Positions 20,378 through 61,417 of a DNA stretch of 64,000 bases are shown piece by piece; within the stretch, counting starts at the first letter, position 1, and each line of letters opens with the position of its first letter. The stretch covers positions 2,796,501 to 2,860,500 of the forward strand of contig NZ_CP061091.1 in assembly GCF_017654485.1 (NCBI RefSeq). The letters run 5' to 3'. Origin of the DNA: Roseomonas marmotae (GTDB taxonomy: Bacteria; Pseudomonadota; Alphaproteobacteria; Acetobacterales; Acetobacteraceae). A program made the translations under genes and the position numbers. The notes beneath the pieces are model-generated. The model was given only the letters and a program-made list of their open reading frames with translations. It had not been told where the DNA came from and searched no databases.

Positions 20378-20439
20378 TGAGCTTGACGCGCTTCCCGTCT
20401 TGCCCGGCCGGGGAGGTGGTAGAACGGCTCGAAGGCGCT

Positions 20440-21900
20440 TCAGTGCGCCAGTGGATAGAGATACTTCACGGACGTCCTGAAGGTGAAGTTGTCGAAGTTG
20501 AAGGTGGAGATGCCCGGCGTATCCACCGTCACGATACGCGCTGCGGCCGTCTCGAAGAAGGCGCGGAAGTGCTGGCTCGACTTGATGGCGATGACCTTGT
20601 AGCGATCCATCGGCATGCCGTGCAGCTTGAGCATTTCATCATCCAGCAACTGCGACTTCAGCTCCGTCACGATGACGTCGACATTGCCGATGCGGAGCCG
20701 CGTGGACAGGCCATAGTCCCGCTCGCCACCCTTGCCCATCGGAGTGCTGGCGATGAAGCGGCAGCGGGTGTTCATCACGACTTCAGCCTCGACATCCAGT
20801 GGCGCGCCGTGCAGCGCGTCCACCTTGCCACCGAGCCGGACCCGGATGCGGGCACCCTCACCGGCCTGGTGAGCGGCGGCCACCACCTCGGCATCCGCCA
20901 GATGGGCGAAGCAGGTGCCCGCGACGTTCCGGCGCAACATCTCGGCCAGCAGCCAGGTGCCGTCGCCCGGGGCGCCCGCGCCAGGATTGTCGGAGGTCTC
21001 GTTGACGATGACCGGTGACTCCGGGCAGGCCAGGGCCGTCTCCAAGCCTTCGGCGGCGCCAGGCAGGGACACTGCGAAGGCATCGCGCTGGTTCCAGATG
21101 AAATCGGCGACGTCCCGCGTGGCCTGCTGCGCCAGGGCCTCATCATTGTCAGCGATGGCAATGACGGAGACGCAGGTGGCGGGTGAATCTCCATAAGGGA
21201 AGCCGTGATAGGCCGCGCAGTGGACGATGCCGGGCTTTGCCTCCCATTCCGCGCAGCGGGCATTCACCGCCTTCAGTGGGCCATGGAAGGTGGTGGTGGT
21301 CGGGATGACCATCGGCAGCCGCGTCAGGGCCATGCTGGGCTTCAACACGCCACGTACCATCAGATCCAGGTTGCGGATGGCGTCCCGACCCCGGTCATAC
21401 ATATCGATGTGCGGATATTCCTTGACGCCGAACAGCATGTCCGCGTTGTCGATCATCCGTTCGGTGATGTTGCCGTGCAGGTCCAGTGTCGCGGCGATTG
21501 GCAGGGCGGCGCCGAATTCCAGCCGCAGTGTCCGCAGCAGGTCGCCTTCGATATCGCCGGTGCTCTCAGCGATCCCCGCGCCATGGAGTTCGAGGCAGAT
21601 GGCATCGACGGGCGCGACCGCCTTCAGTCCTGCCAGCACCCTGCGCTTGATCTCGGACCAGGTCTCGGCACGGATATAGCCGGAGGGGCTGGTGATGGCC
21701 GCGAAGGTCGGCAACAGCTCGATGCCGCCAAGGGCCTCCGCCTCGTCGATCATGCCACCAATGTAGTCCCGCACCCCACGATGGCGGCGGAGGATCTCCG
21801 CCCCCTCGATCCAGGACCGGATGCTGAAGGCGGCCTGGTCGGTCAGTTCGCTGGAGAAGGTGTTGGTCTCGTGCGAGACCTGGACGATGGCAATGCGCAT
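20440..21900 (-). CDS. M81 family metallopeptidase (microcystin-degradation MlrC-like)
   Basis: 486 residues from the ATG at 21900, preceded by AAAGGA; a TTG at 21906 is less likely. The zinc-binding start is AIVQVSHETNTFS, followed by LELHGAG, LDLHGNITERM, ETSDNPGAGAPGDG and the C-terminal SSQHFRAFF. MlrC processes cyclic or linear peptides such as microcystin products; relatives in soil bacteria act on unknown peptides. It follows an ABC peptide-type binding protein on the same strand, which suggests uptake and hydrolysis of the same compound. A 24-base palindrome lies between the two. Confidence 0.9.
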   Translation of the reverse strand: MRIAIVQVSHETNTFSSELTDQAAFSIRSWIEGAEILRRHRGVRDYIGGMIDEAEALGGIELLPTFAAITSPSGYIRAETWSEIKRRVLAGLKAVAPVDAICLELHGAGIAESTGDIEGDLLRTLRLEFGAALPIAATLDLHGNITERMIDNADMLFGVKEYPHIDMYDRGRDAIRNLDLMVRGVLKPSMALTRLPMVIPTTTTFHGPLKAVNARCAEWEAKPGIVHCAAYHGFPYGDSPATCVSVIAIADNDEALAQQATRDVADFIWNQRDAFAVSLPGAAEGLETALACPESPVIVNETSDNPGAGAPGDGTWLLAEMLRRNVAGTCFAHLADAEVVAAAHQAGEGARIRVRLGGKVDALHGAPLDVEAEVVMNTRCRFIASTPMGKGGERDYGLSTRLRIGNVDVIVTELKSQLLDDEMLKLHGMPMDRYKVIAIKSSQHFRAFFETAAARIVTVDTPGISTFNFDNFTFRTSVKYLYPLAH

Positions 21901-21912
21901 GGGCAATCCTTT

Positions 21913-21936
21913 GCGGCCTCGCTGCAGCGAGGCCGC
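21913..21936 (-). repeat. 24-base perfect palindrome between binding-protein and M81 genes
   Basis: The arms GCGGCCTCGCTG and CAGCGAGGCCGC pair without mismatch, giving a very stable RNA hairpin in the gap between the binding-protein stop and the M81 start. There is no T-run, so it is probably not a simple terminator. A hairpin just downstream of a binding-protein gene often stabilises that part of the message and raises its yield over the distal gene. Confidence 0.6.
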
Positions 21937-21990
21937 CTCTGGCTAGCGTAAAGGAAGGGAAAGGGCGCCGGATCGGCGGCGCCCGCCCGG

Positions 21991-23571
21991 TCAGGCGAAG
22001 CGGGCGCCCCAGAAGGCGTGGAGGCCTTCAGGCACGTCCGCCAGCTTCGCCGAATATGCGGTCATGTTGAAGTACTGACCAGTGGGGATGTAGACGGCCT
22101 GCTTCAATGCGACAGCCTGGATCTCCCGCGCCAGCCGCAGCTGATCCTCAGGCTCGGACGAATCGATCCAGGCGTTTCGCAGCGCTTCGAGTTCGGGAAT
22201 ATCGGGCCAGCCAAAATAGGTCTGGCCACCGGCGGCGCGCAGCATCTGGCTGACCCCGGGATTGATCAGATCCAGCCCGTACCAGGTGGTGTGGAACATG
22301 TTCCAGCCGCCCGCCTCGGGCGCGGCCTTGCTGGAGCGGCGCTGAACCAGCGTGCCCCAGTCCGAGACCACGTAATCCACGTTCATTCCGATGCGCCGCA
22401 GCACGTCATTGGCCACTTCGCCCAGCGCAGCCAGCGCTGGGTTGTCGGTGGCCGCCATCAGCACGACCCGCTCACCCTTGTATCCGGCGGCCAGGAGCGC
22501 CTTCTTCGAGGCCTCCAGGTCGCGCGGGCCCGTGATTGCGGCCATCCCGGCGTCGTTGGCCATCGGGGTGTCCGGCGGGAACACGCCGACACCGGCGCGC
22601 CACATGCTGGGCTCCCCGGCGACAGCCGCCATGCAGTCCTCCTGCGAGAAGGCCTCCATCACGATCCGGCGGATTTCCGGGTTGTTGAAGGGCGGGTGCA
22701 GGTGATTGAAGATGCCGGTGCCGACGATGCCGAGAGGGCTGCTGCGCCGCGCCTTCAGGCTGCGCGATCCCTCCAGCAGCGGCAGCAGGTCGTTGGGCGG
22801 GTTTTCCCACCAGTCGACCTCGCCGTTCTGAAGCGCGCTCATGGCCGTGCCGGGGTCGGGCATCACCATCCATTCGACGCGGTCCACATGCGTGACCTTC
22901 GGGCCTGCCGCCCAGCTCGTGGTGCCACCGGGGCGAGGCACGTAGTCCCGGTTCTTCTCGTAGACCACCTTGGCGCCCACGATCCTCTCATCCGCCTTCC
23001 AGCGGAAGGGGCCGGAGCCGATCAGTTCCTTGATCTGCTCGCTGGAGGGGGTCTGTGCCAGCCGCTCCGGCATGATCATCAGCGCCGGGGGGCCGAGGCG
23101 CGCCAGGGCGCTCAGGATGCCCGGATAGGGCTTCTGGAGGCGGATCACGAAGCGGTCGTCGGCGGGCGCGGTGATCTCCGCGACGCGGGACATCAAGGTT
23201 CCGCCCTCCGCGTTGCGTTCGGCCCAGCGGCGGATGGAGGCCACGCAGTCCCGGCCCCGCACGGGTTCGCCGTCATGGAACTTCAGGCCCGGCCTGAGAG
23301 TGAAGGTCCAGAGCCTGCCATCATCCTCGACCGTATGGCCCTCCACCATCTGCGGCTGCGGACGCAGGTTGCTGTCGAGGCCGTAAAGCTGGTCCCAGAT
23401 CAGCAGGGCATGATTACGCGTGACATAGGCAGTGGTGAAAACCGGGTCGATGACCGTCAGGTCGCTCTGCGGCACGAAGCGGAGCGTATTCCGTTGTGCC
23501 TGCGCCAGGGCGGGGCGGGACAGGCTGGCAAGCGAACCCGCAGTGACCGCGAGGAAGGACCGACGTTGCAT
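21991..23571 (-). CDS. ABC transporter substrate-binding protein, peptide/nickel family 5
   Basis: 526 residues. The N-terminus QRRSFLAVTAGSLASLSRPALAQ is a signal peptide with a Tat-like RRSFL and an AxA cleavage site. Family-5 marks follow: LTVIDPVFTTAYVTRN, WTFTLRPGLKFHDGEPVRGRDCVASIRRW and the aromatic-rich C-terminus. It binds a peptide or similar solute in the periplasm. No permease or ATPase genes accompany it, so it must use a transporter encoded elsewhere. The M81 peptidase is downstream; a broken LysR regulator lies divergently upstream. Confidence 0.9.
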   Translation of the reverse strand: MQRRSFLAVTAGSLASLSRPALAQAQRNTLRFVPQSDLTVIDPVFTTAYVTRNHALLIWDQLYGLDSNLRPQPQMVEGHTVEDDGRLWTFTLRPGLKFHDGEPVRGRDCVASIRRWAERNAEGGTLMSRVAEITAPADDRFVIRLQKPYPGILSALARLGPPALMIMPERLAQTPSSEQIKELIGSGPFRWKADERIVGAKVVYEKNRDYVPRPGGTTSWAAGPKVTHVDRVEWMVMPDPGTAMSALQNGEVDWWENPPNDLLPLLEGSRSLKARRSSPLGIVGTGIFNHLHPPFNNPEIRRIVMEAFSQEDCMAAVAGEPSMWRAGVGVFPPDTPMANDAGMAAITGPRDLEASKKALLAAGYKGERVVLMAATDNPALAALGEVANDVLRRIGMNVDYVVSDWGTLVQRRSSKAAPEAGGWNMFHTTWYGLDLINPGVSQMLRAAGGQTYFGWPDIPELEALRNAWIDSSEPEDQLRLAREIQAVALKQAVYIPTGQYFNMTAYSAKLADVPEGLHAFWGARFA

Positions 23572-23699
23572 TCTCTACCTGCTCATCAGAGGGGTGAAGC
23601 CCGATAACTGACGTGGCGCTGCGTTCTGCAATCGCGATGATTACGAGCATGCTAAGGAACCGCCCCGACGGAATCAACAGCGCGTCGAGCCTGGCCTCT

Positions 23700-24425
23700 T
23701 GCCGCAAAGTCGATGGATGGTGGCCTGACGTGCTGGATGAGCGACATGCCGGGGCGATGTGCTGCGTGGTCAGGAACGGCAGCATCCGGACAGCGGCGGG
23801 GTCATGAAAGTCGATCCCGCTGCCATCAGCCGCTACCTGGCGAAGCTGCGGTCGAAATCGGGCTGCCCCTGTTCAGGCGCCGGGGCGTTCCCTGGTTCCG
23901 CCCCCTGCCGTCACGGACAGACATCTGGTCCAACCATCAGGGACTCCTTCGAGGAAGCGCCAGGAGGGCGCCGCGTCCATGAGTGGCAAGCTTGACGCGG
24001 TGCGGGACGCGCAGTCAGGGACAGGAATAGGCAGAGGCTGCCTCAGCCACTTCGTCTCCCAGCCAGTCCACGCCTTCCTGGCGGCACATCCGGCATCCGG
24101 GTTCAAGTCGGGGCTTCTCGGCCGATGCCTTCGGGTCGCCAGAGGGGCTGCTGGATATCGGCCTCGCCTACAACCCGGCGCCGAAGGCCAGACTGAAGTT
24201 GCGGCACGTCAACCTGTGCCGGTCCCGTCGGTGGCCATGGGCGGGAACCCCGGCTCCGGATGACCCGAATCCTGATGATCAAAGATGTCGCCGCTTATCC
24301 CGTCGGCCTTCTGCCCGGCTACGGCCTCAGGAAGCTTGTGTGGAGTGCCGAGTATCTGGAGTGGTCAAGATCCAGCCAATCGTCGCGAGGAACTCACTAT
24401 CCGCGTTCCGGAGCGACCTGAACCC
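23700..24425 (+). pseudogene. Frameshifted LysR family regulator
   Basis: Pieces of a LysR protein appear in order across several frames. They are VVRNGSIRTAA, AAISRYLAKLRS and EIGLPLFRRRG (the DNA-binding domain), then a linker with LSHFVSQPVHAFLAAHP, LLDIGLAYNPAPKARLKLRHV, KDVAAYPVGLLPGYGLRKLV, EYLEWS and IQPIVARNSLSAFRSDLN (the ligand domain). At least four frame changes are needed, so no regulator is made. It points away from the binding-protein gene, the usual layout for a LysR and its target; the M81/binding-protein pair has probably lost its regulator. Confidence 0.72.
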
Positions 24426-24452
24426 CCTCTGATTCTCCGGAAACCACCTCTG

Positions 24453-24474
24453 ATGTAAAACGTCTCCTTTACAT
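24453..24474. promoter_or_regulatory. Palindromic operator overlapping the TetR start codon
   Basis: ATGTAAA and TTTACAT form perfect 7-base arms eight bases apart. The right arm includes the first two bases of the ATG at 24473. It is the natural autoregulatory site for the TetR gene that follows. There is no Shine-Dalgarno sequence in front of that ATG, so the message may be leaderless. Confidence 0.6.
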
Positions 24475-25030
24475 GACAGCGATAGACAAGCGGGCAGAGA
24501 TTGTTTCTGGCGCTGCGGATGCTTTTGAGGCCGAAGGCTTCCGAGGCACCAGCGTTGACAAGGTACTGGCGCCATCGGGCGCTTCCACCCGCACGCTCTA
24601 CAAGCATTTCGGCTCCAAGGACGATTTGGTCCTGGCCGTTCTTGAGGACCGGCACCGTTGCTTCAAGGAGCGTCTCGAAGCCGCATCTGGCAGTGCCGAC
24701 GCGGTTACCACCCTGTTTGACACGCTGCGGCATTGGCTGGAGCAGCATGGCGCGCGGGGGTGCATGCTTCTGCGCGCCCGTGCCGAGTATTCGGGGGCCA
24801 ATGAAGAGATCGTTGCTCTCGTGCGCCGCCAGAAGGACGAGTTTTGCCGTATCATCGACGCTCGCGTTGCGGCAGTCATGGGGCGGAACGACAACAGGCT
24901 CGCGACGCAGATCTGGCTCCTGTTCGAGGGCGCGACAGCGGCAGCCAGTGTCGCTGACCTGGCGGTCGTCGACGAGGCCGCGGCTGCGGCGGCCTCGCTG
25001 ATCAACGCCGCACGGCGGGATGCAGCATGA
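24473..25030 (+). CDS. TetR/AcrR family transcriptional regulator
   Basis: 185 residues. The N-terminal helix-turn-helix is the standard TetR type: IVSGAADAFEAEGFRGTSVDKVLAPSGASTRTLYKHFGSKDDLV. The C-terminal ligand domain resembles AcrR-like C-terminal families (RGCMLLRARAEYSG, IWLLFEGATAAASV). It overlaps the MFS gene by 4 bases (ATGA), so it very likely represses its own operon through the palindrome at its start codon. The inducer is presumably the compound the transporter exports. Confidence 0.9.
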   Translation: MTAIDKRAEIVSGAADAFEAEGFRGTSVDKVLAPSGASTRTLYKHFGSKDDLVLAVLEDRHRCFKERLEAASGSADAVTTLFDTLRHWLEQHGARGCMLLRARAEYSGANEEIVALVRRQKDEFCRIIDARVAAVMGRNDNRLATQIWLLFEGATAAASVADLAVVDEAAAAAASLINAARRDAA

Positions 25031-26196
25031 AAGGCGGCCGCAACCTCGTCGCCGCGGCCTTCGCGCTGACGGCCTTGTCCTACGGGCTGGGCCGGTTCGC
25101 TTACGGTCTTCTTCTGCCGCAGATCCGGGAGGACCTGGCACTCAGTTCGACGGCTGCCGGATGGATCGGCGGCGGCGCCTTCGCGACGTATTGCATCGGC
25201 ATCGTCCTTGCCTCCGCGGCCGGATCGAGACTCGGGGAGCGGAACATGGCCATGCTCGCAGGGCTTGCCGCGACACTTGGCATGGGACTTGTCGCCCTGG
25301 CTTCGTCTGTGCCGGTGCTGGCAGCCGCCATGGCGCTCGCCGGGCTCAGCACGGGGCTAACCTCGCCACCGCTTGCCTTGGCTGTTGCGCGCCGATTTGA
25401 CGAGCACAACCGCGCGAAGGCGAATGGGATGATCAATGCAGGAACGGCGGCAGGAATCGTGCTTTCCGGCATCGCGGCAACAGCTTTCACGGCAGCCTGG
25501 CGCGAGCTGTATGTGCTGTTCGCCCTGATCGGCGCCGCAGTGACGACCTGGCTGCGATTCGCCCTGCCAGCCATTTCGTCTGGGCAGAAGGTGGATGAGG
25601 GAGCCTCGCAGCACCTGGCAAGGCCTGGGCTTGTGAGCTTATGCGCGGCCGCCTCCCTGATGGGTGCATCGAGCACCGCGGTCTGGACGTTCGGTGCCGA
25701 CCTGCTGCGTGCCGAACTCAGCTTGTCGGAATGGCATGTCGCGTTCGCCTGGATCATGCTCGGCTTCGGCGGACTTGTTGGCTCTTCGACCGGCATCCTG
25801 GTGAAGCGCTTCGGGATCGGTCCGGTCCATCGTCTGGCACTTCTTGGAATGGCTCTTTGCTACGGCATGCTCGTGGTCGCGGCATCGGCGCCACTGCTCG
25901 CATTGGCGGCGATGTCTCTGTTTGGAGCCGCCTACATCGTGTCCAGCGGCGTTTTGTTGATCCGGGGGACCTTTCTCCTGCCGGACCGGCCTGGCCTTGG
26001 GCTTGGTATCCCGTTTCTGGCAATCGCAGTCGGACAGGCCATAGGCGCGCCGGTCTTCGGGGCCGTACTGGACAGTGCAGGCGCCGGAACGGCGCTATCT
26101 ATGTTTGCTGCGATGGCTTTCTGGGCGATGATCTGGGGTTTGGAAGACGTCGCTTCTCCGCAGGAATGTGAGGAGCCAAATGGTTCAGCCCCGTAG
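25027..26196 (+). CDS. MFS transporter, YbfB/YjiJ-like
   Basis: 389 residues with about twelve hydrophobic segments. The start AAFALTALSYGLGRFAYGLLLPQIREDL is characteristic of the YbfB/YjiJ branch of the major facilitator superfamily. Loop 2-3 has GSRLGERNMA and the second half begins LVSLCAAASLMGASSTAVWTFGADLL. Substrate unknown; efflux of a small organic compound is likely given the TetR partner. Translation is coupled to tetR by an ATGA overlap. Confidence 0.9.
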   Translation: MKGGRNLVAAAFALTALSYGLGRFAYGLLLPQIREDLALSSTAAGWIGGGAFATYCIGIVLASAAGSRLGERNMAMLAGLAATLGMGLVALASSVPVLAAAMALAGLSTGLTSPPLALAVARRFDEHNRAKANGMINAGTAAGIVLSGIAATAFTAAWRELYVLFALIGAAVTTWLRFALPAISSGQKVDEGASQHLARPGLVSLCAAASLMGASSTAVWTFGADLLRAELSLSEWHVAFAWIMLGFGGLVGSSTGILVKRFGIGPVHRLALLGMALCYGMLVVAASAPLLALAAMSLFGAAYIVSSGVLLIRGTFLLPDRPGLGLGIPFLAIAVGQAIGAPVFGAVLDSAGAGTALSMFAAMAFWAMIWGLEDVASPQECEEPNGSAP

Positions 26197-26734
26197 CCAA
26201 GCATGGTGCGGCCTTCACGTCCGAATTGGGGTAGGGGTGACAGGCATATGCTGAAGACAACGATCCTTCTTTCGGCCAGACGCGGTCGTGCTGCTCCGTT
26301 TGTCACTTGGGCTCCCGCGAATGGCGCCCACTGCTCACCTGGCCGCCCGACCTCGCCACCACTTGTCCAGGCTGCCTAGCCGGGGCCGCGCATCCCGCCC
26401 TGGCACCGAGGCACCACCAATCGAGCGAGGCTGACCGGCACGGGACACGGATCGTGCCATATCAACTGTGCATTCGCGGTGCCTCAGAGGGGCGTGCAGA
26501 ATGACAGTGCCCGCTGGAGCATATCAGCAGGATGTTATGGAATGACCGCATGCCGTGAAGCCGCAGACTGGGGCCAGAGTTGGCTTCTTCGGTCACAATA
26601 GTTTCTCAGATTCGGGGCCAGGCGCGCCACACCTCCTGCCAGGATGCCCGGCGGGGAGCAGCCCCGTCACCACGCGGGACGCGACCATTGGCACCAGCTG
26701 GATATGGCCTCCGCATGCTCCGAGGATTTCTGCA
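26197..26734. other. Intergenic region ahead of the unknown four-gene module
   Basis: About 540 bases. The frame of the next gene stays open to 26555 but that upstream part is not protein-like. No inverted repeat or clear promoter was identified. The start of the module's transcription must lie here if its genes form an operon. Confidence 0.5.
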
Positions 26735-28456
26735 ATGCCCTTGATCCACAACCGTGCGAATGCGACCCGGTATCTCAAGCTAATCCTTGCCACGAAGGGA
26801 AAAGAGGCGGCAATCGGCTTCGGCTGCGGATGGCTCACGTCGAATGTCCCGCTGCTGCACGTCAAGCGCACGGCGAGCCCGGGAGGATTGGGCAACGAGC
26901 TCAAGAGCAGCGAATGGAAGGGCGACATCAAGCCGAACGGCAAGCCTGCGCCCAAGATCGCTGCCACCGGATTTCTGCAGCTCGAAGGTGAGACGCTGAT
27001 CATCCGCTGCCGGGGCAATGCCGGCCAAGCGCCTCGCCTGCTGCGCGACTACTTCGTACGGGGCTTCAAGTTGAAGCCAGCCTGGAGCAGCGTTTCGGTC
27101 CGCGAGCAGACCGATGCAGACGCCGCCCTGGCTTCGACCATGCCAGCCGAAGAGGAAGCCTTGCGCGCCGTCTCCGAGGAGGCGCTACGCCGGGCCCAGG
27201 ACCAGGCGGATGGGGGGGAGGACAGCGAGGAAGTCGTCCTGCAGGACACGCCGCCCGCAGAGCTGGAGGCTGCGGCTCCTGATCAGGCGGCCACCGCACC
27301 GGCCGAGGAACCAGCTACGGCCAGCACCACAGAAGCGGCGGAGGAGGCGTCAACAGAAGCGGTGGGTGCTGAGCCGGACGGCCCAGGGTTGACGCCCGGT
27401 CTGGCGGCGGGCGTCGCAAGCCAAGCCGCCCGCATCTCCGATCACGTCCAACAGCTGGCGCCGAAAATCGGTCTCGCAGTTGAGGCTGAAGGGCAAGATA
27501 TCGCAGACAAGATCTCGAACTGGCTGGAAAGCGCGGTCGCAGCAGCCCCTCCCGGCGAGCAGGAAAGAACGCTGGAGAATCTCAGCGTCCGGCTGCTGCT
27601 GATGCTGTCCTATACGGACAATCTGCGGACGCTGATCACTAATGAGGCGCCGGAAAAGAAGGCGAAACGCGGTGCGGGCCGCCCATCCCGGGCCAGAGAT
27701 GCCGGAACCAAGCGGCTGATCCGGCTGGAGGACATCGCGGATGGGCCGATGACCGCCGAAGAACTGACCGACCTGCTCTATCACGAGGCCCTCACTCTTG
27801 CCGAATTGAAGCCTTTCCCCTTCGACCTGGCTGGATACAGCAAGGCGAAGCTGCGTGAGCATGTCGGCAGCATGTGGCAGGAGGGGCTGACCGGAACGGC
27901 GCTGCTTCAGCAGGCGGAGAAGGTGCGCAAGAACATGCAGGGCCTTTTCCGCACGGATAAGGGGATCGCGGTGGCGCTCGGGTTGCAGCCATCAGCCCGG
28001 CAAACGCAGGAACAGGCTCTGGCGGCCCTCGCTGCGCGCATCGCGACACGCTGGTCCATCATGCAGAACGAAGCCACGGCCTCTCTGGAGTCCCTTAAGC
28101 TGAAAGCCGATGCGGAGCTGAAGGAGGTGGACCAAGACTACAGCGTCGGGGCCCTCGGCGGCACCTGGAATGATCCCGATGCCGCCGTATCCAGGCTGGT
28201 TACCGGCGATCTCGACCACCTCATCGCCGATATTGCCTCAGGCATCAGAGAAGGCCGCGAAGCCGCCGTCGCATCGGCCGAGAAGATGGTCGCCGACCGC
28301 ACAGCCCTGGTGGAAAGCGACCCCATGCTTCGCCTGCTGGACGAGGCGCCCTTCGCCGACGGTGCCGGCCTGCGCGATACAGCAATTGCGACGCTCGGGC
28401 AGATTTCTGCCATGCTGGCAAACCTGCGCAGCGCCGCTTCGCTCCAAGCCGCGTAG
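26735..28456 (+). CDS. Uncharacterised 573-residue protein, first gene of the unknown module
   Basis: Starts at 26735 with CGAGG nine bases upstream. Residues 1-130 look like a compact folded domain (RYLKLILATKGKEAAIGFGCGW, then VKRTASPGG and RGNAGQAPRLLRDYFVRGFKLKPAW). Residues 140-240 are an Ala/Glu-rich, low-complexity linker. Residues 250-570 are helical, with KKAKRGAGRPSRARD, a basic GRP segment that could bind DNA in an AT-hook-like way, and MTAEELTDLLYHEALTLAELKPF. No signal peptide or membrane segment. I do not recognise a family. It is co-directional with the next three genes, with gaps under 100 bases. Confidence 0.75.
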   Translation: MPLIHNRANATRYLKLILATKGKEAAIGFGCGWLTSNVPLLHVKRTASPGGLGNELKSSEWKGDIKPNGKPAPKIAATGFLQLEGETLIIRCRGNAGQAPRLLRDYFVRGFKLKPAWSSVSVREQTDADAALASTMPAEEEALRAVSEEALRRAQDQADGGEDSEEVVLQDTPPAELEAAAPDQAATAPAEEPATASTTEAAEEASTEAVGAEPDGPGLTPGLAAGVASQAARISDHVQQLAPKIGLAVEAEGQDIADKISNWLESAVAAAPPGEQERTLENLSVRLLLMLSYTDNLRTLITNEAPEKKAKRGAGRPSRARDAGTKRLIRLEDIADGPMTAEELTDLLYHEALTLAELKPFPFDLAGYSKAKLREHVGSMWQEGLTGTALLQQAEKVRKNMQGLFRTDKGIAVALGLQPSARQTQEQALAALAARIATRWSIMQNEATASLESLKLKADAELKEVDQDYSVGALGGTWNDPDAAVSRLVTGDLDHLIADIASGIREGREAAVASAEKMVADRTALVESDPMLRLLDEAPFADGAGLRDTAIATLGQISAMLANLRSAASLQAA

Positions 28457-28553
28457 CCATGCTGCAGGTGCGCCGTGACCGTACCCAGCCACATCCTGAC
28501 GGTTCTTTAGATATGACCGGGAGGGCAGAGGAACAATCGGTGACCAGATCCAG

Positions 28554-29369
28554 TTGCTATTCAAAGTTGTCACGCCGTATGGCTCGATAGCTGTTGAGGA
28601 TCATCGTGGAAATGGAACGCCGATTCTGCTGATTCACGGTAACTCCTCCTGCCGCGGCGTCTTCCTCCGGCAGACCCAAAGCACGCTTGCCGAAAGCCAC
28701 CGTCTCATTGCCATCGACCTGCCAGGGCACGGTCAGTCAGATGACGCGCCTGACCCCGTTAACGGTTACACGCGGCCGGGACTCGCAGATAGCATCATTG
28801 AACTCCTGACGGTGCTTGATATCGGCGAAGTCATCCGCATGGGGTGGTCGCTGGGTGGGCACATCGGCATCGAGATGCTCTCTCGCTTCAATGGAGTGAA
28901 AGGACTCATCATCACCGGCACGCCGCCAGACCGGCACGGTGGCATGGCAGAGGGATTTGTTGCCCTGCCCCAAACAGGCCTGGCAGGCCGCAGGGATCTG
29001 TCCGAAGCAGAGATCGATGATTTTGCACGCATGATGTTCGGAGAGCCGGTTGAGCCATTTCTGCGCGATGCCATACGCCGCGCTGATGGACATTGCCGGC
29101 AACGCCTCTTTGAGGCCGCACGAGCGGGATATGGAGTTGACCAGCGCCTCGCGCTTGAGAACACTTCGGTGCCCGTTGCCGTCATCAATGGCGATGGCGA
29201 TCCCTTGATCAAGCTGGATTATATCGATGGCGCTGCCCATGCGAGGCTTTGGCAAGGGAGGTGCCACCGCCTGAGTGGCGTTGGTCATGCCGCCTTCTGG
29301 CACGCGGCGGATGAGTTCAACTCCATGCTCTTTCGCTTTGCACGGAACGTTGAATCCAAGGCCGTGTAG
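28554..29369 (+). CDS. Alpha/beta hydrolase
   Basis: 271 residues from a TTG at 28554; the frame has no ATG or GTG upstream, and the only purine-rich stretch (GAGGGCAGAGGAA) is about 20 bases away, so the true start is uncertain. The fold is clear: PILLIHGNSSCRGVF (oxyanion), AIDLPGHGQSDDAP, nucleophile elbow GWSLGGHIGIEML, acid in INGDGDPL and His in SGVGHAAFWH. Soluble; substrate unknown. It is third-party to the helical proteins around it but shares strand and close spacing, so it may be the catalytic part of the same module. Confidence 0.82.
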   Translation: MLFKVVTPYGSIAVEDHRGNGTPILLIHGNSSCRGVFLRQTQSTLAESHRLIAIDLPGHGQSDDAPDPVNGYTRPGLADSIIELLTVLDIGEVIRMGWSLGGHIGIEMLSRFNGVKGLIITGTPPDRHGGMAEGFVALPQTGLAGRRDLSEAEIDDFARMMFGEPVEPFLRDAIRRADGHCRQRLFEAARAGYGVDQRLALENTSVPVAVINGDGDPLIKLDYIDGAAHARLWQGRCHRLSGVGHAAFWHAADEFNSMLFRFARNVESKAV

Positions 29370-29457
29370 TCGCGCAGAGGGAAGTCGAAGGATGCAACAG
29401 GCCTGTCGTCGGACTCAATAGCATGATCACCCCCCATCTGATCCCGGGAACGAAACT

Positions 29458-30195
29458 ATGCCGGCTGCAGTGAGTAACATGCTGGAGAAGAAACGTTGGC
29501 TGAGCGAGGTGCTCGGCGTCAGATTCCCGCGACCGGCTGCCGGGGATCCGGCCGCCGCGGCCGTCATGGACCTGATGGACAGCGTCATGGCGGACCTCCC
29601 TGCGCTGCGGCAGCGCGACGCCGATCTGGCGGCACGGATCGAGACGGTTCTCGCGACGGCCCGTGCCGAGCTCGGAGGGGGTGCCGCCGACCGCGCGCTG
29701 CGGCTCCTGGATGGAGCCAGCAAGGCCATCGCCAACTCCGCCGCACAGGCCCGCGCCAGGGACGTGGCGGCGGCGATGCCCGAAGGCACGGTCGGCCGCG
29801 CCGTCGACGGATTGGAGGCAGCCCGGCGACGCTGGGCGACGGCGCGCCTGCGCTCCATCGACGGTCTCAACGCACTAACAGGAGTGTTGCGCCAACAAGA
29901 GGACCCCGACCTGCACGACATCGCCGACCGCATTGATGGCATCGTCACACGTCTACCGGACGCGCTGGACAATGCCCTTGCCGCACTCGCCGCAACGATG
30001 GCGGCGGCGGGGAGCGATCCGGCGCCGTTGCGGCGCCGTGTCGAGGCGCTGCTGAGCACGGCGTCCGCTTTGCTGCACGACGATGCGACCGCACTCGCGG
30101 CGTGCGAAGCCAACCCCTGGGGCATCGCCGTCGCGCTGCGTGTGCCGCTCGCGGATGCTATCGCCGACGTCCAGGACGCGCTGCGGGCCATTTGA
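29458..30195 (+). CDS. Uncharacterised helical protein with WLxxVxGxRxP start
   Basis: 245 residues, Ala/Leu/Arg-rich and almost wholly helical. Near the N-terminus it reads KKRWLSEVLGVRFPRP, which closely resembles EWLQQVAGIRIPGR in the protein at 5521-6021. The rest (ALRQRDADLAARIETVLATARAEL, DRALRLLDGASKAI, and DVQDALRAI at the end) looks like a helical bundle. No membrane segment or signal. It ends 45 bases before the 1298-residue gene, so the two are surely co-expressed. It could be an adaptor or chaperone for the large protein. A second possible start is the Met at 29479. Confidence 0.72.
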   Translation: MPAAVSNMLEKKRWLSEVLGVRFPRPAAGDPAAAAVMDLMDSVMADLPALRQRDADLAARIETVLATARAELGGGAADRALRLLDGASKAIANSAAQARARDVAAAMPEGTVGRAVDGLEAARRRWATARLRSIDGLNALTGVLRQQEDPDLHDIADRIDGIVTRLPDALDNALAALAATMAAAGSDPAPLRRRVEALLSTASALLHDDATALAACEANPWGIAVALRVPLADAIADVQDALRAI

Positions 30196-30240
30196 TCCAG
30201 GCGCACGCCCCGTGCTGCCGTCTCGCTGGAGGAAGCTGGC

Positions 30241-33200
30241 ATGCCCAGTGACGTGGATATCAAGGAATGGATAGTGAGGTGGGGCTACAACCCGCTGCCC
30301 GAGCACTCTCCGGTGCCGCGCAGCGTGCGCAGCGTGCGCAGCGCGGCCGGGGACCTGCAAGGCGTTGATACCCCCCAGCACGCTGATGCCACGCTCGCCA
30401 AGCCGCTGGCGCGGTCGATCGCCGACCGCATGCGGAATCGGTGGGCCATCGACCGCACCGCCACGTTCGACCAGATCTCCGGCGTCGCCACCTCGCGCGC
30501 TCGCCAGAAAGAACTCGCCAGCATCGCCGGCGACAAGCACCCCCTGGTCATCACCTACGGCCTGCGCACGATCACCGACCTCACGCCGGCGGCAGACCGC
30601 GCCGGAATTCGCATCGACAGCGATTTCAGCTCGCCTTACAGCCGCGACGAGCTTGACTTGCACGATAAGAAGGACAAGCCGGTCGAAACAGCGTTCCGGA
30701 AGGTCTATGAGAAATACAAAGGTCCCGAGTTGCCAGAGTACGACGAGAACCGCGTGTTCTTCGTCAATTCGGGCAGGGTCTTGGACAAGCTCACGGCCGT
30801 CGGCGGTGCGGACTGGACGGCGCCCGATGGCACGAAGGTGCTCGGCGACGACCACAAAGCGAGCTGCCACTTCGTTCGGGAGGGGTTCCACGCCCTGATC
30901 ATTGATCCGCCGTTCGGGAGAAAGGAGGAGAATCGGCGCAAAGCCTTGTCGGGCAACCTGCTGCCCGGCACAGGCGCCACGCCCTCGACCTACAAGATCG
31001 TCCGCTTGCTCTTCCCAGAGGGATCCGATCCACTCGAGGATACCAGGCTGCGGGATGAGGATGCCGATACGGACGCCCAATCCAAAGCGCTCGCCGCGTC
31101 CGAGAACCTCACGCGCCTGGAGGCGCTGCCTCGTGATCACCCGATGGAGACCATCGCTGGCGCCGCGGCGAAGATGGTGAGGGGGCTTGAGAGGGCGCTA
31201 GACTCGGTTTCCCCGGAGCGCGCCGAGAAATGCAGGCACAACAGGCTGATCGCGGCGGCGCTCAAGCAGATCGAGCAGCTCATGGCGACCATGCCGTCCT
31301 ACATGGACGACATCCCGCGCTTCTCGCGCCTGTTCGACCTTCTGGTCGATGAGGTCTACCTGGCGCTCGCCGTGGCCAAGCCGTACACGCTGGCGAGCTA
31401 CCAGGCAGCCGCGGCCGGTGCCCTCGCGCGGCGCGCACCGACGCTGAATACGCTGGAGGAGGAGGGCGTCACCGTCGATACCTTCCTGCTCTCCAGCGGC
31501 ATGGACACGATGGCGTCTGCCACCCTTGCGGCCAAGGCGGCGCTTGGAGATCGCGGCGGTAAGGTGAACCTCATGGAGTCCATGACGAAGGCGAACCGCA
31601 AGAAACGCGGCGCGAACTACTTCGAGGTCCAGACCAACATGTTCGGCGAGGACGCGATCGACAGCGTGGGCCCCCTGATCATGGGCACGCTCAATCCGTC
31701 CACGCCGACGCAGCAGATGACGCCTGGTGCCAAGCAGGAATGGGATGTTCAGGCCCTGATAGACGGCATCAACGCCCGTCTCGATGCGCCTCCTTTGCCT
31801 GCCACGCCCGAAAACCCGTCCATAGCCATCATCGACATCACCGTCGAGAAGGGCGCGGAGCAGGAAGCCGAGCTGGAGCAGATCATCAAGGCCTTCGACG
31901 AGAAACTTGCCGAGGGATCGCTCCAGATCGTGCTGTGCAAGAGCTATCAGAAGTTTCCGAGCCTCGGCAGCGGCAAGGCGATGGCCGGCGGTGTCAGCCT
32001 CATCGGCAAGGCCGGGCCGACACGGGACGGGCTCGCCACCAGCCTGAAAGAAACGCAGGACGCGGAAAAGGTGATGGACGGCGATGAGGCGCAACTGGTT
32101 GTCCATTTCGTCACCCATGAGGATGAGATGGAACGCCCGATGCTGGCCCGCGCGGCCAAGAACGCTGATTTCGTGCGCAAGATTCTGGGCGATCTGGGCG
32201 GCGAGAGATTCCTGTATGCCGAGGGTCTTCCTTTCTTGGCGATCCCCGACGATCAGATTCAGTTCGGCAGTCCGGCCGGCAAGATCGAGCCGGGAACGCT
32301 GCTGCAAGACATGGGCTTGGAGAACCGCTTCAGCTTCGGCTTCCAGAATTCGAGCTGCCTGCCCTTCCCTAAAGGTGTGCGCATCGCCGTCGGCCAGGAG
32401 AGCGAGGCCGAGCTGACGGAGAAGTTCTTCGCCCCGTTGCGCCTGATCGGAGAGCATGCCAGGTCCCCCACCCTCGTGACGCCGGAACGTCTCGCGGAGA
32501 TCGCCGGGGATGCCGCCACCATGGCCTGCCGCGAACTTGCAGACCGCCTGCGCGCCGTGGACAGAACCGACCCCAAGGCGGAAGCGCGGTGGCGGATCGA
32601 CATCGTGGCGAAGCTGCTGGCAGCGGGTGCAATCAGCCGCGATCAGGTGGAATACGAACCGGGCATGTTCGATGACAAGGCCAAGATCGGCCTGGACGAA
32701 GGCGCCCCGGTCGCTGGCGACGTCAGGCGCGTGCTTACGGAGGACAATCCGAACGCCATCAACGACCTGTTGTTGTCGCTGCTTGACAGCCTCGGTAATG
32801 GTTCGCTGCCGCCCGGTTTCGATCTGCCGGCGGATAAGCGGCTCGGCGTGCAACTCGCCCTGGTGACCCGTTACACGGGGGCGCTGGTCGATGACGGGCT
32901 GCGTCTGGACGATGTGGCGGCACGGCGGAAGGCGGCGGAGGCCGGAACGCCGCTGGTCGCGGAGACCGACAGCAACCTGCTGCATGCCAACATCCAGCGC
33001 GGCTGGCGGACGGAGCGCGCGATCGGCGTCGCACCGCAGGGCATGGAGGCGTCTAAGCTTCCGAACATCGTCGCAAGCTGTGCGCTGACGAGCGCAAGGT
33101 TGTTCAAGCATGACGAAGGGATGAAGTCCTTTGCCACGCTTGCTGATCTCTTGATCGAGAACGGCCTCGACCAGCTGAGCCCGGAAGCGCAGCAAGGAAT

Positions 33201-34137
33201 CCTGCGCCAACGTGCCGAGGCCGCGTTGCAGCTAGACTGCCAAAACACAACGGACACCGACGCCATTGACGCCGCAGTGGCGACGATCAAGCGCAGCGTC
33301 GGCAAGCTGCCTTATCGCGAGGGTGCCGCCGCCATACTGAAGGGCCCGGCGATCGCGGAGGTGGTGAATGGCTGGGGTGACTCACCAAAGGAAAGCGACA
33401 CCCTCGCACTGAACCGGATCATGGAGGCGATCGCCGCCCGCCTCGACCTTCAGGCCCGAGTGGACCTGCTGATGACGCTTCTTGACTCGGTGGAGGCGCA
33501 GAAGAAGCTTCCTGAACTGCAAATAGACATCGAGAAGTGCGAAGTGTCCATCAAGGAATCCACGAAAATAAAGAAGGAATACAAGAAGGCAAAAGACGAA
33601 TACACGGTCGATGATAACGGCGAGAAAATCCGGGTATCCGAAGAGTACGGTAATGCGCGTAAGGAGCTGAAACTATTGATGAAGGAGGCAAAGCCGAGCG
33701 ACGCCGAAGGCTCGGAAAGGCACAGAGCGAAAATTGCCGAAGCGAATAAGATAGTGGAAGACCTTAAGACTTTGATGGCTCACATGAAAGCGGAAGAAAA
33801 TTATAGAGCGATCATAGATGTCATCGAACAAGCGGACGGCCGCATCAAAGAAAAAGAGAGCCGCATCGAGGCACTGAAGGCGGAGCAGGACGCCATAACC
33901 TCGCTGCGCGCGCCCCCCACTATCCTCGTCCGGGCGCTCAAGGACGCGCTGGAAGCCGCGCTGGAGGCCGCGGGGAAGGAGCCGACCCTGGCCTCGGCGG
34001 GTCCGCTTGCCGCCACCAGGCTGGGAAGAGTGACGGGCGACACGGGCGGTCCGGCAGCCATGACGAAAGAGGAGTTGGAGGCGATCAGGGCATCATTCGA
34101 CATGGCAAAAGCCCGCATAGCCGCGCTCTCGCCGTGA
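30241..34137 (+). CDS. 1298-residue multidomain protein with a probable fold-type I PLP domain
   Basis: Starts behind a strong GGAGGAAG. Residues 1-330: unknown domain with a 9-base tandem repeat (RSVRSVRS). Residues about 410-720 fit fold-type I PLP enzymes: FLLSSGMDTMASATLAAK (cofactor-phosphate cup, Ser418-Ser419-Gly420), AIIDITVEKG (Asp532 for the pyridine nitrogen), KSYQKFPSLGSGKAMAGG (Lys571, or Lys567, as Schiff-base lysine) and NSSCLPFPKGVRIAVGQ. Residues 720-1070: helical, unknown. Residues about 1080-1220: charged coiled coil with visibly lower GC. This domain mix matches no protein I know. Partner of the 245-residue protein upstream. The PLP call is my inference from motif order. 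Confidence 0.8.
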   Translation: MPSDVDIKEWIVRWGYNPLPEHSPVPRSVRSVRSAAGDLQGVDTPQHADATLAKPLARSIADRMRNRWAIDRTATFDQISGVATSRARQKELASIAGDKHPLVITYGLRTITDLTPAADRAGIRIDSDFSSPYSRDELDLHDKKDKPVETAFRKVYEKYKGPELPEYDENRVFFVNSGRVLDKLTAVGGADWTAPDGTKVLGDDHKASCHFVREGFHALIIDPPFGRKEENRRKALSGNLLPGTGATPSTYKIVRLLFPEGSDPLEDTRLRDEDADTDAQSKALAASENLTRLEALPRDHPMETIAGAAAKMVRGLERALDSVSPERAEKCRHNRLIAAALKQIEQLMATMPSYMDDIPRFSRLFDLLVDEVYLALAVAKPYTLASYQAAAAGALARRAPTLNTLEEEGVTVDTFLLSSGMDTMASATLAAKAALGDRGGKVNLMESMTKANRKKRGANYFEVQTNMFGEDAIDSVGPLIMGTLNPSTPTQQMTPGAKQEWDVQALIDGINARLDAPPLPATPENPSIAIIDITVEKGAEQEAELEQIIKAFDEKLAEGSLQIVLCKSYQKFPSLGSGKAMAGGVSLIGKAGPTRDGLATSLKETQDAEKVMDGDEAQLVVHFVTHEDEMERPMLARAAKNADFVRKILGDLGGERFLYAEGLPFLAIPDDQIQFGSPAGKIEPGTLLQDMGLENRFSFGFQNSSCLPFPKGVRIAVGQESEAELTEKFFAPLRLIGEHARSPTLVTPERLAEIAGDAATMACRELADRLRAVDRTDPKAEARWRIDIVAKLLAAGAISRDQVEYEPGMFDDKAKIGLDEGAPVAGDVRRVLTEDNPNAINDLLLSLLDSLGNGSLPPGFDLPADKRLGVQLALVTRYTGALVDDGLRLDDVAARRKAAEAGTPLVAETDSNLLHANIQRGWRTERAIGVAPQGMEASKLPNIVASCALTSARLFKHDEGMKSFATLADLLIENGLDQLSPEAQQGILRQRAEAALQLDCQNTTDTDAIDAAVATIKRSVGKLPYREGAAAILKGPAIAEVVNGWGDSPKESDTLALNRIMEAIAARLDLQARVDLLMTLLDSVEAQKKLPELQIDIEKCEVSIKESTKIKKEYKKAKDEYTVDDNGEKIRVSEEYGNARKELKLLMKEAKPSDAEGSERHRAKIAEANKIVEDLKTLMAHMKAEENYRAIIDVIEQADGRIKEKESRIEALKAEQDAITSLRAPPTILVRALKDALEAALEAAGKEPTLASAGPLAATRLGRVTGDTGGPAAMTKEELEAIRASFDMAKARIAALSP

Positions 34138-34434
34138 GCGAGCGTGGCTTGGTTCGAGCAGCAGCAGCTTGCGGTCCGCGCCCGCGTCAACCCGCCCCGG
34201 CCTTCACGCGGCGATAGGAGCGGACGTCGATACATCACGGCGGACCTGCCCGCAGCGCCGCTGTTGACTTCGGCTGGACGAGTGGAGGGTTGCTCACCGG
34301 CCGGGGTGGCGGGATACCGGCATCCTGCCCGGTCCGGTGCGCTACGGCCCCGCTGTCGCCACCTGCCGCTACTGGGGAGACGATATGCGCTGCCCACTGT
34401 AAGTAGCCCTTCGCGTCCATTCCGGTGCGTACCG
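34138..34434. other. Intergenic region between the unknown module and egtD
   Basis: About 300 bases between two convergent genes. I see no gene, repeat or clear terminator in it. Confidence 0.5.
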
Positions 34435-35394
34435 TCAGCTCTCCAGCAGCGAGACGGAGAACATGTCGCCAGAGTCAGTCCAGGTGGCGGCTATCCGCCA
34501 TTCGGCGGCATCCGCCAGGGCGCGGAGCTGGTCAAGGCGATATTTATGGCTGCTCTCGGTGTGGATGCTTTCTCCGGCTTCGAAGCGAAAGACGCGGCCG
34601 GCCAACCGCACGGACTGGGCATGCCGCGCCACCAGATGCATCTCGATCCTGCTGGCCACGGCGTTCCAGCGCGCCTCATGCCGGAAGGCGTGAACGTCGA
34701 AATCCGCGCCTGCCTCGCAGTTGAGGCGAGTCAGCAGGTTCAGGTTGAAAGCCGCCGTTACCCCGGCGGCATCGTCATAGGCTGCCCGCAGCACCGGGAT
34801 TTCCTTCACCAGATCGGCACCCAGCAGCATGCGCGCCCCGGCCCTCAGGCTGGTGCGGGCGCGGCGCAGGAAGGCGATGGCTTCCGCCGGCTCAAAATTC
34901 CCGATGGTTGAGCCAGGAAAGAAGCCGAGATGCGTGGTGCTGCCCTCGGCCCGCCCGGCGAGGTCGAAAGGGCAGGTGAAATCGGCTACCACCGGGCGCA
35001 CGCGCAGCGTGGGGAAGGCCTCCGCGACGCGGGAGGCCGCGGCGGCGAGCCATTCCGGCGCGATGTCCACAGGCAGGTAGACCGCCGGGGCGTTCAACTG
35101 CCGGAGCAACTGCACGGCCTTGGCACCGTCACCCGGGCCGAACTCCACCACCGCCGCACCGGGCCCGACCGCGCGGGCGATCTCCGGCCCACATTCCTCC
35201 AGAATCCCAACCTCGGTCCGCGTCGGGTAGTATTCCGGCAGGCCGGTGATCGCCTCGAAGAGCCGCGTGCCTTCGGCGTCGTAGAGCCACTTGCAGGGCA
35301 GCGTCTTGCGGGCGGCGGAAAGGCCGGCCAGGGCATCGGCCACCAGGGCGGCGCGCTGCGCCTCGGCCGGGTCGCGGGACAAGGCGCCATTCAT
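34435..35394 (-). CDS. egtD: L-histidine N(alpha)-methyltransferase
   Basis: 319 residues from the ATG at 35394, which overlaps the egtB stop by 4 bases; the frame stays open upstream inside egtB. EgtD trimethylates histidine to hercynine with SAM, the first step of ergothioneine synthesis. Visible marks are CKWLYDAEGTRLFEAITGLPEYYPTRTE, the SAM loop VVEFGPGDGAKAVQLL, FFPGSTIGNFEP and the C-terminal FRFEAGESIHTESSHKY. With EgtB it forms a two-gene operon. EgtC, EgtA and EgtE are not here. Confidence 0.94.
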   Translation of the reverse strand: MNGALSRDPAEAQRAALVADALAGLSAARKTLPCKWLYDAEGTRLFEAITGLPEYYPTRTEVGILEECGPEIARAVGPGAAVVEFGPGDGAKAVQLLRQLNAPAVYLPVDIAPEWLAAAASRVAEAFPTLRVRPVVADFTCPFDLAGRAEGSTTHLGFFPGSTIGNFEPAEAIAFLRRARTSLRAGARMLLGADLVKEIPVLRAAYDDAAGVTAAFNLNLLTRLNCEAGADFDVHAFRHEARWNAVASRIEMHLVARHAQSVRLAGRVFRFEAGESIHTESSHKYRLDQLRALADAAEWRIAATWTDSGDMFSVSLLES

Positions 35395-36599
35395 GCTACG
35401 TCTTCCGCCAGCCGCAAGCCGCTGAACTGCCAGCGCGCCCCGGGCGCGAAGAAGTTCCGGTAGCTCGGGCGCGTATGCTCCGGGGGCGTCGCCAGCGAGC
35501 CGCCGCGCAGCACCATCTGGTTGATCATGAACTTGCCGTTGTATTCGCCGACCGCCCCAGCCCAGGGCCGGAAGCCGGGATAGGGGCGATAGGCGCTGCC
35601 GGTCCATTGCCAGCAGATGCTGTCCGCATCGGCAAAGTCCGGCAGGGCGGTGGCCGCCGCCTCCCATTCCTGTTCCGTGGGCAGGCGCTTGCCGGCCCAG
35701 CGGGAGAAGGCGTCGGCCTCGTACCACGAGATATGGCAGACCGGCTGCTCCGGCTCCAGGGCACGAAGCCCGCCGAGGCCGAACTGCATCCACTGGCCGT
35801 CGCGCTCCTCCCAGTAGAGCGGCGCCTCCCAGCCTTCGGCCTGGCACATGGCCCAGCCCTCGCTCATCCAGAGCAGCGGCTGTCGGTAGCCGCCGTCCTG
35901 CATGAAGGCCAGCCATTCCCCGTTGGTCACCAGGCGATCGGCGATGCGATAGGGCGAGAGATAGGTCGGGTGCCGTGGCGTCTCGTTATCGAACGCGAAG
36001 CTGTCCCCGTCATGGCCGATATCTACGACGCCGGCCGGGCCGTCGAGCATCCGGGCCGGGCCGGCCGTGGCGGGTGGCGGCTGCCATGCGGCGTCATAAG
36101 CCGGCCGCAGCGGATTGGCGCTGAGGGCATGGAGGATGTCGGTCAGCAGCAGTTCCTGATGCTGCTTCTCATGCTGCAATCCGAGTTCGAGCAGCGCCGG
36201 AACCTCGGCCGGCGGATCGCGCAGCAAACCCGCCATGGCCTCGTCCACGGCCGTGCGGTACTCCCCCACCTCCTCGCAGGAGGGCCGTGTCAGCATCCCC
36301 CGCTTCGGGCGGGCATATCGCGGCCCGGCAGCCTCGTAGTAAGAGTTGAACAGGAAAGCGTATTCTTCCCGCACGCGGCGATAGCCGGGCAGGAAGGGCA
36401 GCAGCAGAAAGGTTTCGAAGAACCAAGTGGTATGCGCACGGTGCCACTTGGCAGGACTGGCATCGGGCATGGACTGCACGACCTGATCCTCGGGCGACAG
36501 CGGCGCCGTCAACCTATCTGTCCAGGTACGCGTGTCGCGGTAGCGGGCCGCCAGCGCATCCTTACCGGCTCCCACCACCTGGCGGTGAAAAACATTCAT
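35391..36599 (-). CDS. egtB: Ergothioneine biosynthesis sulfoxide synthase
   Basis: 402 residues from the ATG at 36599, with GGGGGAG upstream. The N-terminal DinB-like domain supplies the iron ligands (KWHRAHTTWFFE and LQHEKQHQELLL). The C-terminal formylglycine-generating-type domain has GHDGDSFAFDNETPRHP, YEADAFSRWAGKRLPTEQEWEAAA and the closing LRGGSLATPPEHTRPSYRNFF. EgtB joins hercynine to a cysteine-type thiol with O2. Translationally coupled to egtD. Ergothioneine protects against oxidative stress. Confidence 0.94.
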   Translation of the reverse strand: MNVFHRQVVGAGKDALAARYRDTRTWTDRLTAPLSPEDQVVQSMPDASPAKWHRAHTTWFFETFLLLPFLPGYRRVREEYAFLFNSYYEAAGPRYARPKRGMLTRPSCEEVGEYRTAVDEAMAGLLRDPPAEVPALLELGLQHEKQHQELLLTDILHALSANPLRPAYDAAWQPPPATAGPARMLDGPAGVVDIGHDGDSFAFDNETPRHPTYLSPYRIADRLVTNGEWLAFMQDGGYRQPLLWMSEGWAMCQAEGWEAPLYWEERDGQWMQFGLGGLRALEPEQPVCHISWYEADAFSRWAGKRLPTEQEWEAAATALPDFADADSICWQWTGSAYRPYPGFRPWAGAVGEYNGKFMINQMVLRGGSLATPPEHTRPSYRNFFAPGARWQFSGLRLAEDVA

Positions 36600-37031
36600 G
36601 GCGCCGCTCTCCCCCGGTAGCACTGCAGATCTGTCGGCTGGCCGGCAAGCCGTATCCTGATGGCCGATGGCCTCCCGAACCGGCAACGTCACTGGAGCCG
36701 CTCGGTTGCGGGAAGAGAGATCTGTTCCGGGTTACGACTGCGATGGGCCGGCGGGCTGTCCGCGACATGGCAACCGGTATGCCGCGCCCTGGGCTCGGCG
36801 GGCCGGATGCAGGATTGAAAGGCCCTTGCCTGCGCCCCCGGCTGTGCCGTGCGGCACACGGCCTGGCTGCCGCTGGGCAGCACCCGTCATGGCCCCTGGC
36901 GCTGCCAGCGCCAGGGACCATGCCAGGGGACCAGGAACCTTCGCGGCTTATGGAAGCCAAAGCTCCACGGCCCGCTTCTACCTGGGGCAGGCGCCCTGCT
37001 GATCCTGACCCGGCATCTGCGGCAGAATGCT
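36600..37031. other. Intergenic region upstream of egtB
   Basis: About 430 bases between the GntR gene and egtB, which run in the same direction. It holds a strong 16-bp hairpin at 36888-36922 (listed separately) and must contain the egt promoter. No gene is supported. Confidence 0.55.
36888..36922. terminator. Strong hairpin downstream of the GntR gene
   Basis: Sixteen-base arms with one mismatch flank a 3-base loop; the inner ten pairs are CCCTGGCGCT with AGCGCCAGGG. It lies about 110 bases after the GntR stop. There is no T-run, so it would be a Rho-helped terminator or a message-stabilising structure rather than a classic intrinsic terminator. Confidence 0.4.
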
Positions 37032-41698: not shown

Positions 41699-41846
41699 AG
41701 CTGAGCTCCTCACTCCTTTGGGGAATTTTGCATTTCTTTGCTCGGCCCCGCCATGCGGCGGCAGCCATCATCCGGCGGCGAGGGAGATTACACTCGGAGG
41801 GCCCGGCCGACCCACCCCAAGCACGGGCACAACGGAAAGGTGCGAC

Positions 41847-50348: not shown

Positions 50349-50544
50349 TACGTCCCCTGAGCCACTGCGGCTGGACATGACCAGCCATACACCGCGGCAA
50401 CGCCGTGTATCTGGTTGGCAGCATGGCTCGAGGCGCACCGCTTCTCGAATCCGCATTTGTCATTCCGGTATCAAGAACGGCTATGGTCCTCACGCCCTCC
50501 GAAGGAAGGCAGAAAGCTCCTGTGGGTGAAGAGGGTCCGCGGCC

Positions 50545-52611: not shown

Positions 52612-52632
52612 AGGCCCGCTCCCCGCGCTGCT

Positions 52633-58695: not shown

Positions 58696-58749
58696 CTTCC
58701 TGCGGAGAATGCCAGAGCTCTTCCAGAGTATTCGTACTGCAGACGGGAT

Positions 58750-59280: not shown

Positions 59281-59323
59281 GGTAATCCTCTAGAATGAAT
59301 AAAGTTAAAGCAGGAATTCCCGC

Positions 59324-61353: not shown

Positions 61354-61417
61354 TGCGGCCATCCTTCTGGTATGATCGCGCCGGTGCGGCGCATGTTGGG
61401 GGTAGTGCCTGGCGTCA

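Follow-up and report, generated by a model that had tools for sequence, protein, structure and literature searches.

Four co-directional genes of Roseomonas marmotae, named here A to D, may form an unrecognised cargo-and-helper set for the T6SS. They occupy positions 26735-34137 of the window, by which we mean the whole stretch of 64,000 nucleotides that was analysed (contig NZ_CP061091.1, forward-strand positions 2,796,501 to 2,860,500). The explanation that we favour, tentatively and with somewhat less than even confidence, is that a laterally acquired island bears a mobile T6SS accessory cassette in which A would act as helper, C as partner and D as a candidate PLP-dependent cargo. This reading draws on the position of A's family after tssM, the co-occurrence of D with TssC and the proximity of D to T6SS genes in the window and in Burkholderia arboris. 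It also draws on the pairing of C with D, a predicted PLP fold with invariant K571, D532 and R714, a patchy distribution, and a comparison of the island with related genomes.

Four reading frames in a probable island

As the first-pass annotation had described, all four reading frames are open on the plus strand. Gene A (26735-28456, +) encodes 573 aa from an ATG start; an alternative longer GTG start lies at 26555, and the related protein P0016 starts at the same methionine as the ATG. Gene B (28554-29369, +; 271 aa, TTG start) had been called an alpha/beta hydrolase and matches Abhydrolase_1 (PF00561, E 8e-19), with no NCBIfam equivalog above cut-off. Gene C (29458-30195, +) encodes 245 aa that appear helical by eye, and gene D (30241-34137, +) encodes 1298 aa, comprising a predicted PLP fold-type-I domain and a helical and coiled-coil C-terminal part. 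The intergenic gaps measure 97 (A-B), 88 (B-C) and 45 (C-D) bases, each one base shorter than the 98, 89 and 46 first reported. Third-position GC of 0.64-0.80 in the four frames, together with homologues of A (60% identity), C (33-34%) and D (31-51%), indicates that the frames are coding rather than chance openings. For A, C and D, neither Pfam nor NCBIfam gives a match above the curated cut-offs, and PADLOC gives none of significance, in agreement with the initial statement that three of the four proteins lack a known family. The GC content is uneven (A 0.649, B 0.589, C 0.709, D 0.631; whole window 0.654), which fits a patchwork. The search for sigma-70-like sites gave none, against 1.2 expected by chance; four terminator-like sites were found (5.8 expected), all of them outside the spaces between the A, B, C and D genes. 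A helical domain common to A and C had been suspected, but hhalign supported neither this nor homology between C and D or between A and D.

TetR and MFS genes (24473-26196, +; PF00440, PF07690) precede the block, within a stretch of 10 kb that is missing from this place in the sister species, G001. There, roughly 0.9 kb separates the counterparts of window stretches 20402-24420 and 34437-36666 (egtDB), one of which is inverted. For window positions 24421-34436, which contain TetR, MFS and genes A to D, blastn gave no match in the four stretches compared. In G003 and G007, egtDB was the sole match within the stretch fetched. This three-genome comparison points to the A-D block together with TetR-MFS as a probable island of some 10 kb; the block itself is rare and probably horizontally acquired. 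Elsewhere in the window, ARAGORN places a tRNA-Arg at 39918-39995 (-), inside a long regulator ORF (39119-41713); this may be a false call.

Gene D and its pairing with gene C

We assign approximately residues 106-745 of D (30556-32475, +) to the fold-type-I PLP enzymes, with good confidence in the predicted structure. The model of residues 1-1063 (pLDDT 81.7, pTM 0.84) has the fold-type-I PLP architecture in this domain; BesB (PDB 9aua), 16% identical to D, ranked first by VIA-align, and the best 50 matches listed by Foldseek were other PLP enzymes. The assignment rests on the predicted fold, after Pfam, NCBIfam, PADLOC, a PDB sequence profile that did not recognise D, and hhalign had all failed. 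K571, D532 and R714 are invariant across 15 sequences, and we take them to fill the Schiff-base lysine, aspartate and arginine roles of fold-type-I PLP enzymes. K571 (codon 31951-31953, +) is the presumed PLP-binding lysine by its invariance and by a weak hhalign alignment that puts it on the lysine of a SATKY motif. That comparison, with Cys/Met-family proteins from 4 of 30 fetched loci, those matching the lysine-motif pattern, gave a probability of 5.5% and an E of 0.007 for one comparison. PF01053 (Cys/Met metabolism PLP family) matched none of D, 11 aligned homologues, P0013, P0014 and the Burkholderia arboris protein. The invariant residues suggest catalysis, and PLP binding and catalysis are candidate activities of D, based on sequence and model. 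The early description of the large protein as 'PLP-like' thus holds as a lead, in the form of a predicted fold-type-I domain. The best PADLOC hit of D was JetC (E of 0.2), which falls on its coiled coil, and D was rejected as a known anti-phage system for want of a significant PADLOC match.

D is very rare and patchily distributed. A protein search returned 12 proteins, D itself included, among the 7995 scored candidates sharing most words with it. Counts that include the window's own genome put D in 1 of 98 relatives, 1 of 385 genomes from the class, 1 of 398 from the phylum and 2 of 299 from its own family. In the family to which the Sedimentitalea genome belongs, 2 of 248 genomes have D, and in that of the Pseudoduganella genome 2 of 245 by tally; of the latter pair, G1214 has a 40-residue match alone, at E 8.5e-4, and was dropped from the D counts. 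The sister species G001 is without D. Scanning of genome contigs gave two D loci and the plasmid collection one record; phage records and viral contigs held no match, and a phage origin of D was rejected on that result.

Six D loci could be read: the window, L002 (Burkholderia arboris), L003 (Sedimentitalea arenosa), L004 (Pseudoduganella namucuonensis), L015 (G890) and L018 (G1332). C lies directly upstream of D in three of them (the window, L003 and L015, with gaps of 45, 13 and 13 bases), and at L002, L004 and L018 D stands where no C was found. Transposase-like genes adjoin D in L015 and L002, and the D homologue of G1332 (L018 7776-11336, -; 1186 aa) sits alone between metabolic-looking genes, in each case as judged by eye. 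The five loci outside the window yielded no relative of A or B. On the strength of these six loci, C and D form a conserved pair, in which we propose that C is a small partner of D, and the four-gene unit is particular to the window's genome as far as the data go. The first-pass annotation had proposed a single four-gene module and had named independent occurrence of the genes in related genomes as what would speak against it. Independent occurrence is what the gene-order comparison found, with A relatives residing in T6SS clusters without C or D, and the module is no conserved unit. The C-D pair and the connection with the T6SS survive this comparison, and B is possibly a passenger.

Links to the T6SS

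A T6SS cluster recognised by Pfam matches occupies 50545-63966 of the window (vgrG, clpV, tssG, tssF, tssE, hcp, tssC, tssB and tssA on the minus strand, tssK on the plus strand), with D 16 kb from vgrG and about 26 kb from tssC. A second alpha/beta hydrolase gene (49506-50456, -) directly follows vgrG on the same strand.

Judged by its sequence relatives, A belongs to an unnamed family of T6SS-cluster proteins. A tblastn search of plasmids with A matched 47 records (Rhizobium 40, Sinorhizobium 5, Mesorhizobium 2; E down to 1e-14), and the neighbourhoods of seven, several of them near-copies of one another, were inspected. In all seven, tssM is followed on the same strand by the A homologue, at the end of a tssK-fha-tssL-tssM run. 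One exception to strict adjacency is a record with a 62-aa ORF between tssM and the homologue; one record has the homologue annotated as two pieces, and the gene at the tssL position of the Mesorhizobium record is named OmpA family. A profile of two rhizobial proteins matches A residues 186-561 at E 3.4e-30, the best of 1000 shuffled decoys reaching E 0.068. Downstream of tssM in G001 is the gene for a protein that shares 38% identity with A residues 1-121 (E 4e-26, single comparison) and is matched by a five-sequence A-family profile at E 4.9e-19. This G001 relative was not among the matches of the rhizobial-only profile and, used as query, matched no rhizobial record, so that A forms the bridge between two groups that miss each other. 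The one close relative of A, P0016 (60% identity), lies on a metagenome contig, and the structure model of A, with a pLDDT of 47.9, was too low in confidence for a fold search. Near tssC of G800, a 456-aa reading frame (L059 10570-11940, -) without a Pfam match is a weak match to the A-family profile (E 0.0012), and the plasmid of Rhizobium etli 8C-3 carries three annotated Ulp1-family isopeptidase genes downstream of its T6SS cluster (L053 25997-36963).

The gene adjoining the A relative in G001 encodes a 741-aa protein (L058 14904-17126, -) with a DUF4135 match (PF13575, E 2e-34), which we take to be the LanM dehydratase domain; its sole plasmid match is a Streptomyces LanM protein. Located inside the T6SS cluster, it too is a candidate cargo, from a different enzyme class. 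The next gene encodes a caspase-like protein that carries a peptidoglycan-binding domain (L058 13640-14908), and such a protein ends the T6SS cluster in both species (L057 7290-8513 in the window's genome). Beyond the window, the order in the latter genome is tssM, TagF and the caspase-like gene, and the 20-kb stretch holding tssM has no significant A match. The tssM neighbourhoods of the rhizobia, G001 and the window's genome thus place the relatives of A within the T6SS cluster and A itself in the island with D. A would most likely act as a helper, either an adaptor or a chaperone, between the T6SS apparatus and its cargo.

A second link comes from the genomes that carry D. TssC (PF05943) occurs in all six D-bearing genomes or records (G000, G800, G801, G890, G1332 and the Burkholderia arboris replicon W01, which is one replicon of its genome) and in 34 of 95 D-less genomes, namely 6 of 15 of the same genus and 28 of 80 others (own family 13 of 30; families of G800 and G801 6 of 25 and 9 of 25). 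By Fisher's exact test, p is 0.003 (0.008 when W01 is left out), for six D carriers and with genome size uncontrolled. In Burkholderia arboris, about 20 kb separates D from tssC (a fragment), and D shares its strand with this gene and with tssF, tssG, clpV and vgrG. ORFs that come after D there were named by eye as Rhs/PAAR-like, SUKH-like and, for two of them, transposase-like. Searches with six window T6SS proteins detected no T6SS gene in the 14-24 kb around D at L003, L004, L015 and L018, and Pfam finds no PAAR, Rhs or VgrG marker domain in D or its homologues. The missing T6SS neighbours in four of six loci and the missing marker domain both count against the cassette, as does the lack of D beside the rhizobial A genes. 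Cargo effectors carried non-covalently need no T6SS marker domain. A further point against the cassette is that no immunity gene is recognised. We rate the T6SS link of the block as fair to good, and D as a predicted cargo candidate that the T6SS may deliver or secrete. The first-pass suggestion of an effector or conflict system gains from the membership of A's family in T6SS clusters, and stands as a lead in that respect. The serine/proline-rich start of the Burkholderia D, noted by eye, had raised the idea of a T3SS link, which found no support: TIGR01399 (type III export gate) exceeded its cut-off in just two of the six D genomes or records.

If the block is a T6SS cassette, C would hand over D, and A would help to load D onto the apparatus. 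In the recipient, D would act on an amino-acid side chain, as of methionine, cysteine, homoserine or a relative, by beta- or gamma-elimination or by beta- or gamma-replacement, and the recipient cell would be starved or poisoned. B may handle the product of D, act in immunity, or merely travel along. A bolder proposal, which we regard as rather doubtful, is that A represents a T6SS helper family with exchangeable enzyme cargos (LanM-dehydratase-like in G001, PLP gamma-lyase-like in the case of D) and that D is a PLP-dependent T6SS effector attacking the amino-acid metabolism of the recipient.

Competing readings and known systems

A biosynthetic role for D together with TetR-MFS and B is a strong rival, even if the full scheme seems unlikely to us. 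In such a small-molecule island, TetR would control the MFS exporter and A-D, a BesB-like D would make an unusual amino acid, B would tailor it and the MFS protein would export it; proximity to the T6SS would be incidental and A would have been recruited from a T6SS cluster. The nearest fold to D by VIA-align is that of BesB, a biosynthetic PLP enzyme, and TetR, MFS and a hydrolase share its stretch; TetR-MFS beside the block suits this scheme equally well, which we count against the cassette, and the metabolic-looking surroundings of D in L018 (by eye) agree with it. However, no MFS, TetR or B relative was found at the other five D loci, the partner enzymes of BesB were not seen in the four-gene block, A's family is encoded with the T6SS, and TssC is present in every D genome or record.

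We judge it just as improbable that C and D alone form the unit, A and B being unrelated neighbours that landed in the same island and D a PLP enzyme with an internal role. The pairing of C with D in three of six loci, the absence of A and B from the other five and the uneven GC of the four genes are all as this account would have them; against it, two independent T6SS links, through A's family and through the co-occurrence of D, meet in one 7.4-kb block.

A, C and D could instead be an internal T6SS assembly or regulatory set, with the PLP domain of D a sensor or scaffold rather than a delivered enzyme. A relatives do occur in the structural T6SS operon even where no recognised cargo gene lies beside them; D, however, is found in few T6SS genomes, 34 of the 95 D-less genomes carrying tssC, and its invariant PLP residues suggest catalysis, and we hold this account to be quite improbable. 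An anti-phage defence system, for which a rare, patchy multi-gene block of unknown proteins, with what look by eye like transposase genes next to D at L015 and L002, might be taken, is highly improbable given the lack of a significant PADLOC match, the absence of D from phage records and viral contigs, and a linkage that was found to be with the T6SS.

We return to the T6SS cassette. Should D prove to be a PLP-dependent T6SS effector, T6SS toxicity would extend to the cofactor-driven rewriting of amino-acid metabolism, and A's family, unnamed in Pfam, would offer a sequence handle for further cargo genes near tssM. In the titles and abstract starts among the matches listed for T6SS with pyridoxal, PLP-dependent or cystathionine, no PLP-dependent T6SS effector appears, and those of the literature on BesB describe none of this kind; a search for DUF4135 with T6SS found no description.

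Several known systems resemble parts of the block. By fold, D is related to BesB (PDB 9aua) and to the gamma-family fold-type-I PLP enzymes (cystathionine gamma-lyase, methionine gamma-lyase, CndF). Unlike these, it has extra helical and coiled-coil parts, a C partner and a distribution in T6SS-linked genomes, it is missed by PF01053 and by PDB sequence search, and its identity to BesB is low. A is homologous over residues 186-561 to the rhizobial protein after tssM (for example WP_004678814.1), and the starts of the two align, whereas A lies 16 kb outside the T6SS cluster, before B, C and D, at about 27% identity. The A-like gene of G001 with its DUF4135 neighbour repeats the arrangement of an A-family protein beside a large enzyme-like protein, although DUF4135 is not a PLP domain, the locus is part of the T6SS cluster itself, and B, C and D were not found there. 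Rhizobium etli Mim1 has the T6SS effector Re78 and the DUF2169 adaptor Re81 (PMC10215855). The passages of that paper on Re78 do not name a gene after tssM; A and C, unlike Re81, have no Pfam DUF2169 match, and the likeness to Re78 is one of description. As those passages present the Re78/Re81 genes (PMC10215855), they and the window have in common that cargo and adaptor genes, putative in the case of the window, are kept with a T6SS cluster.
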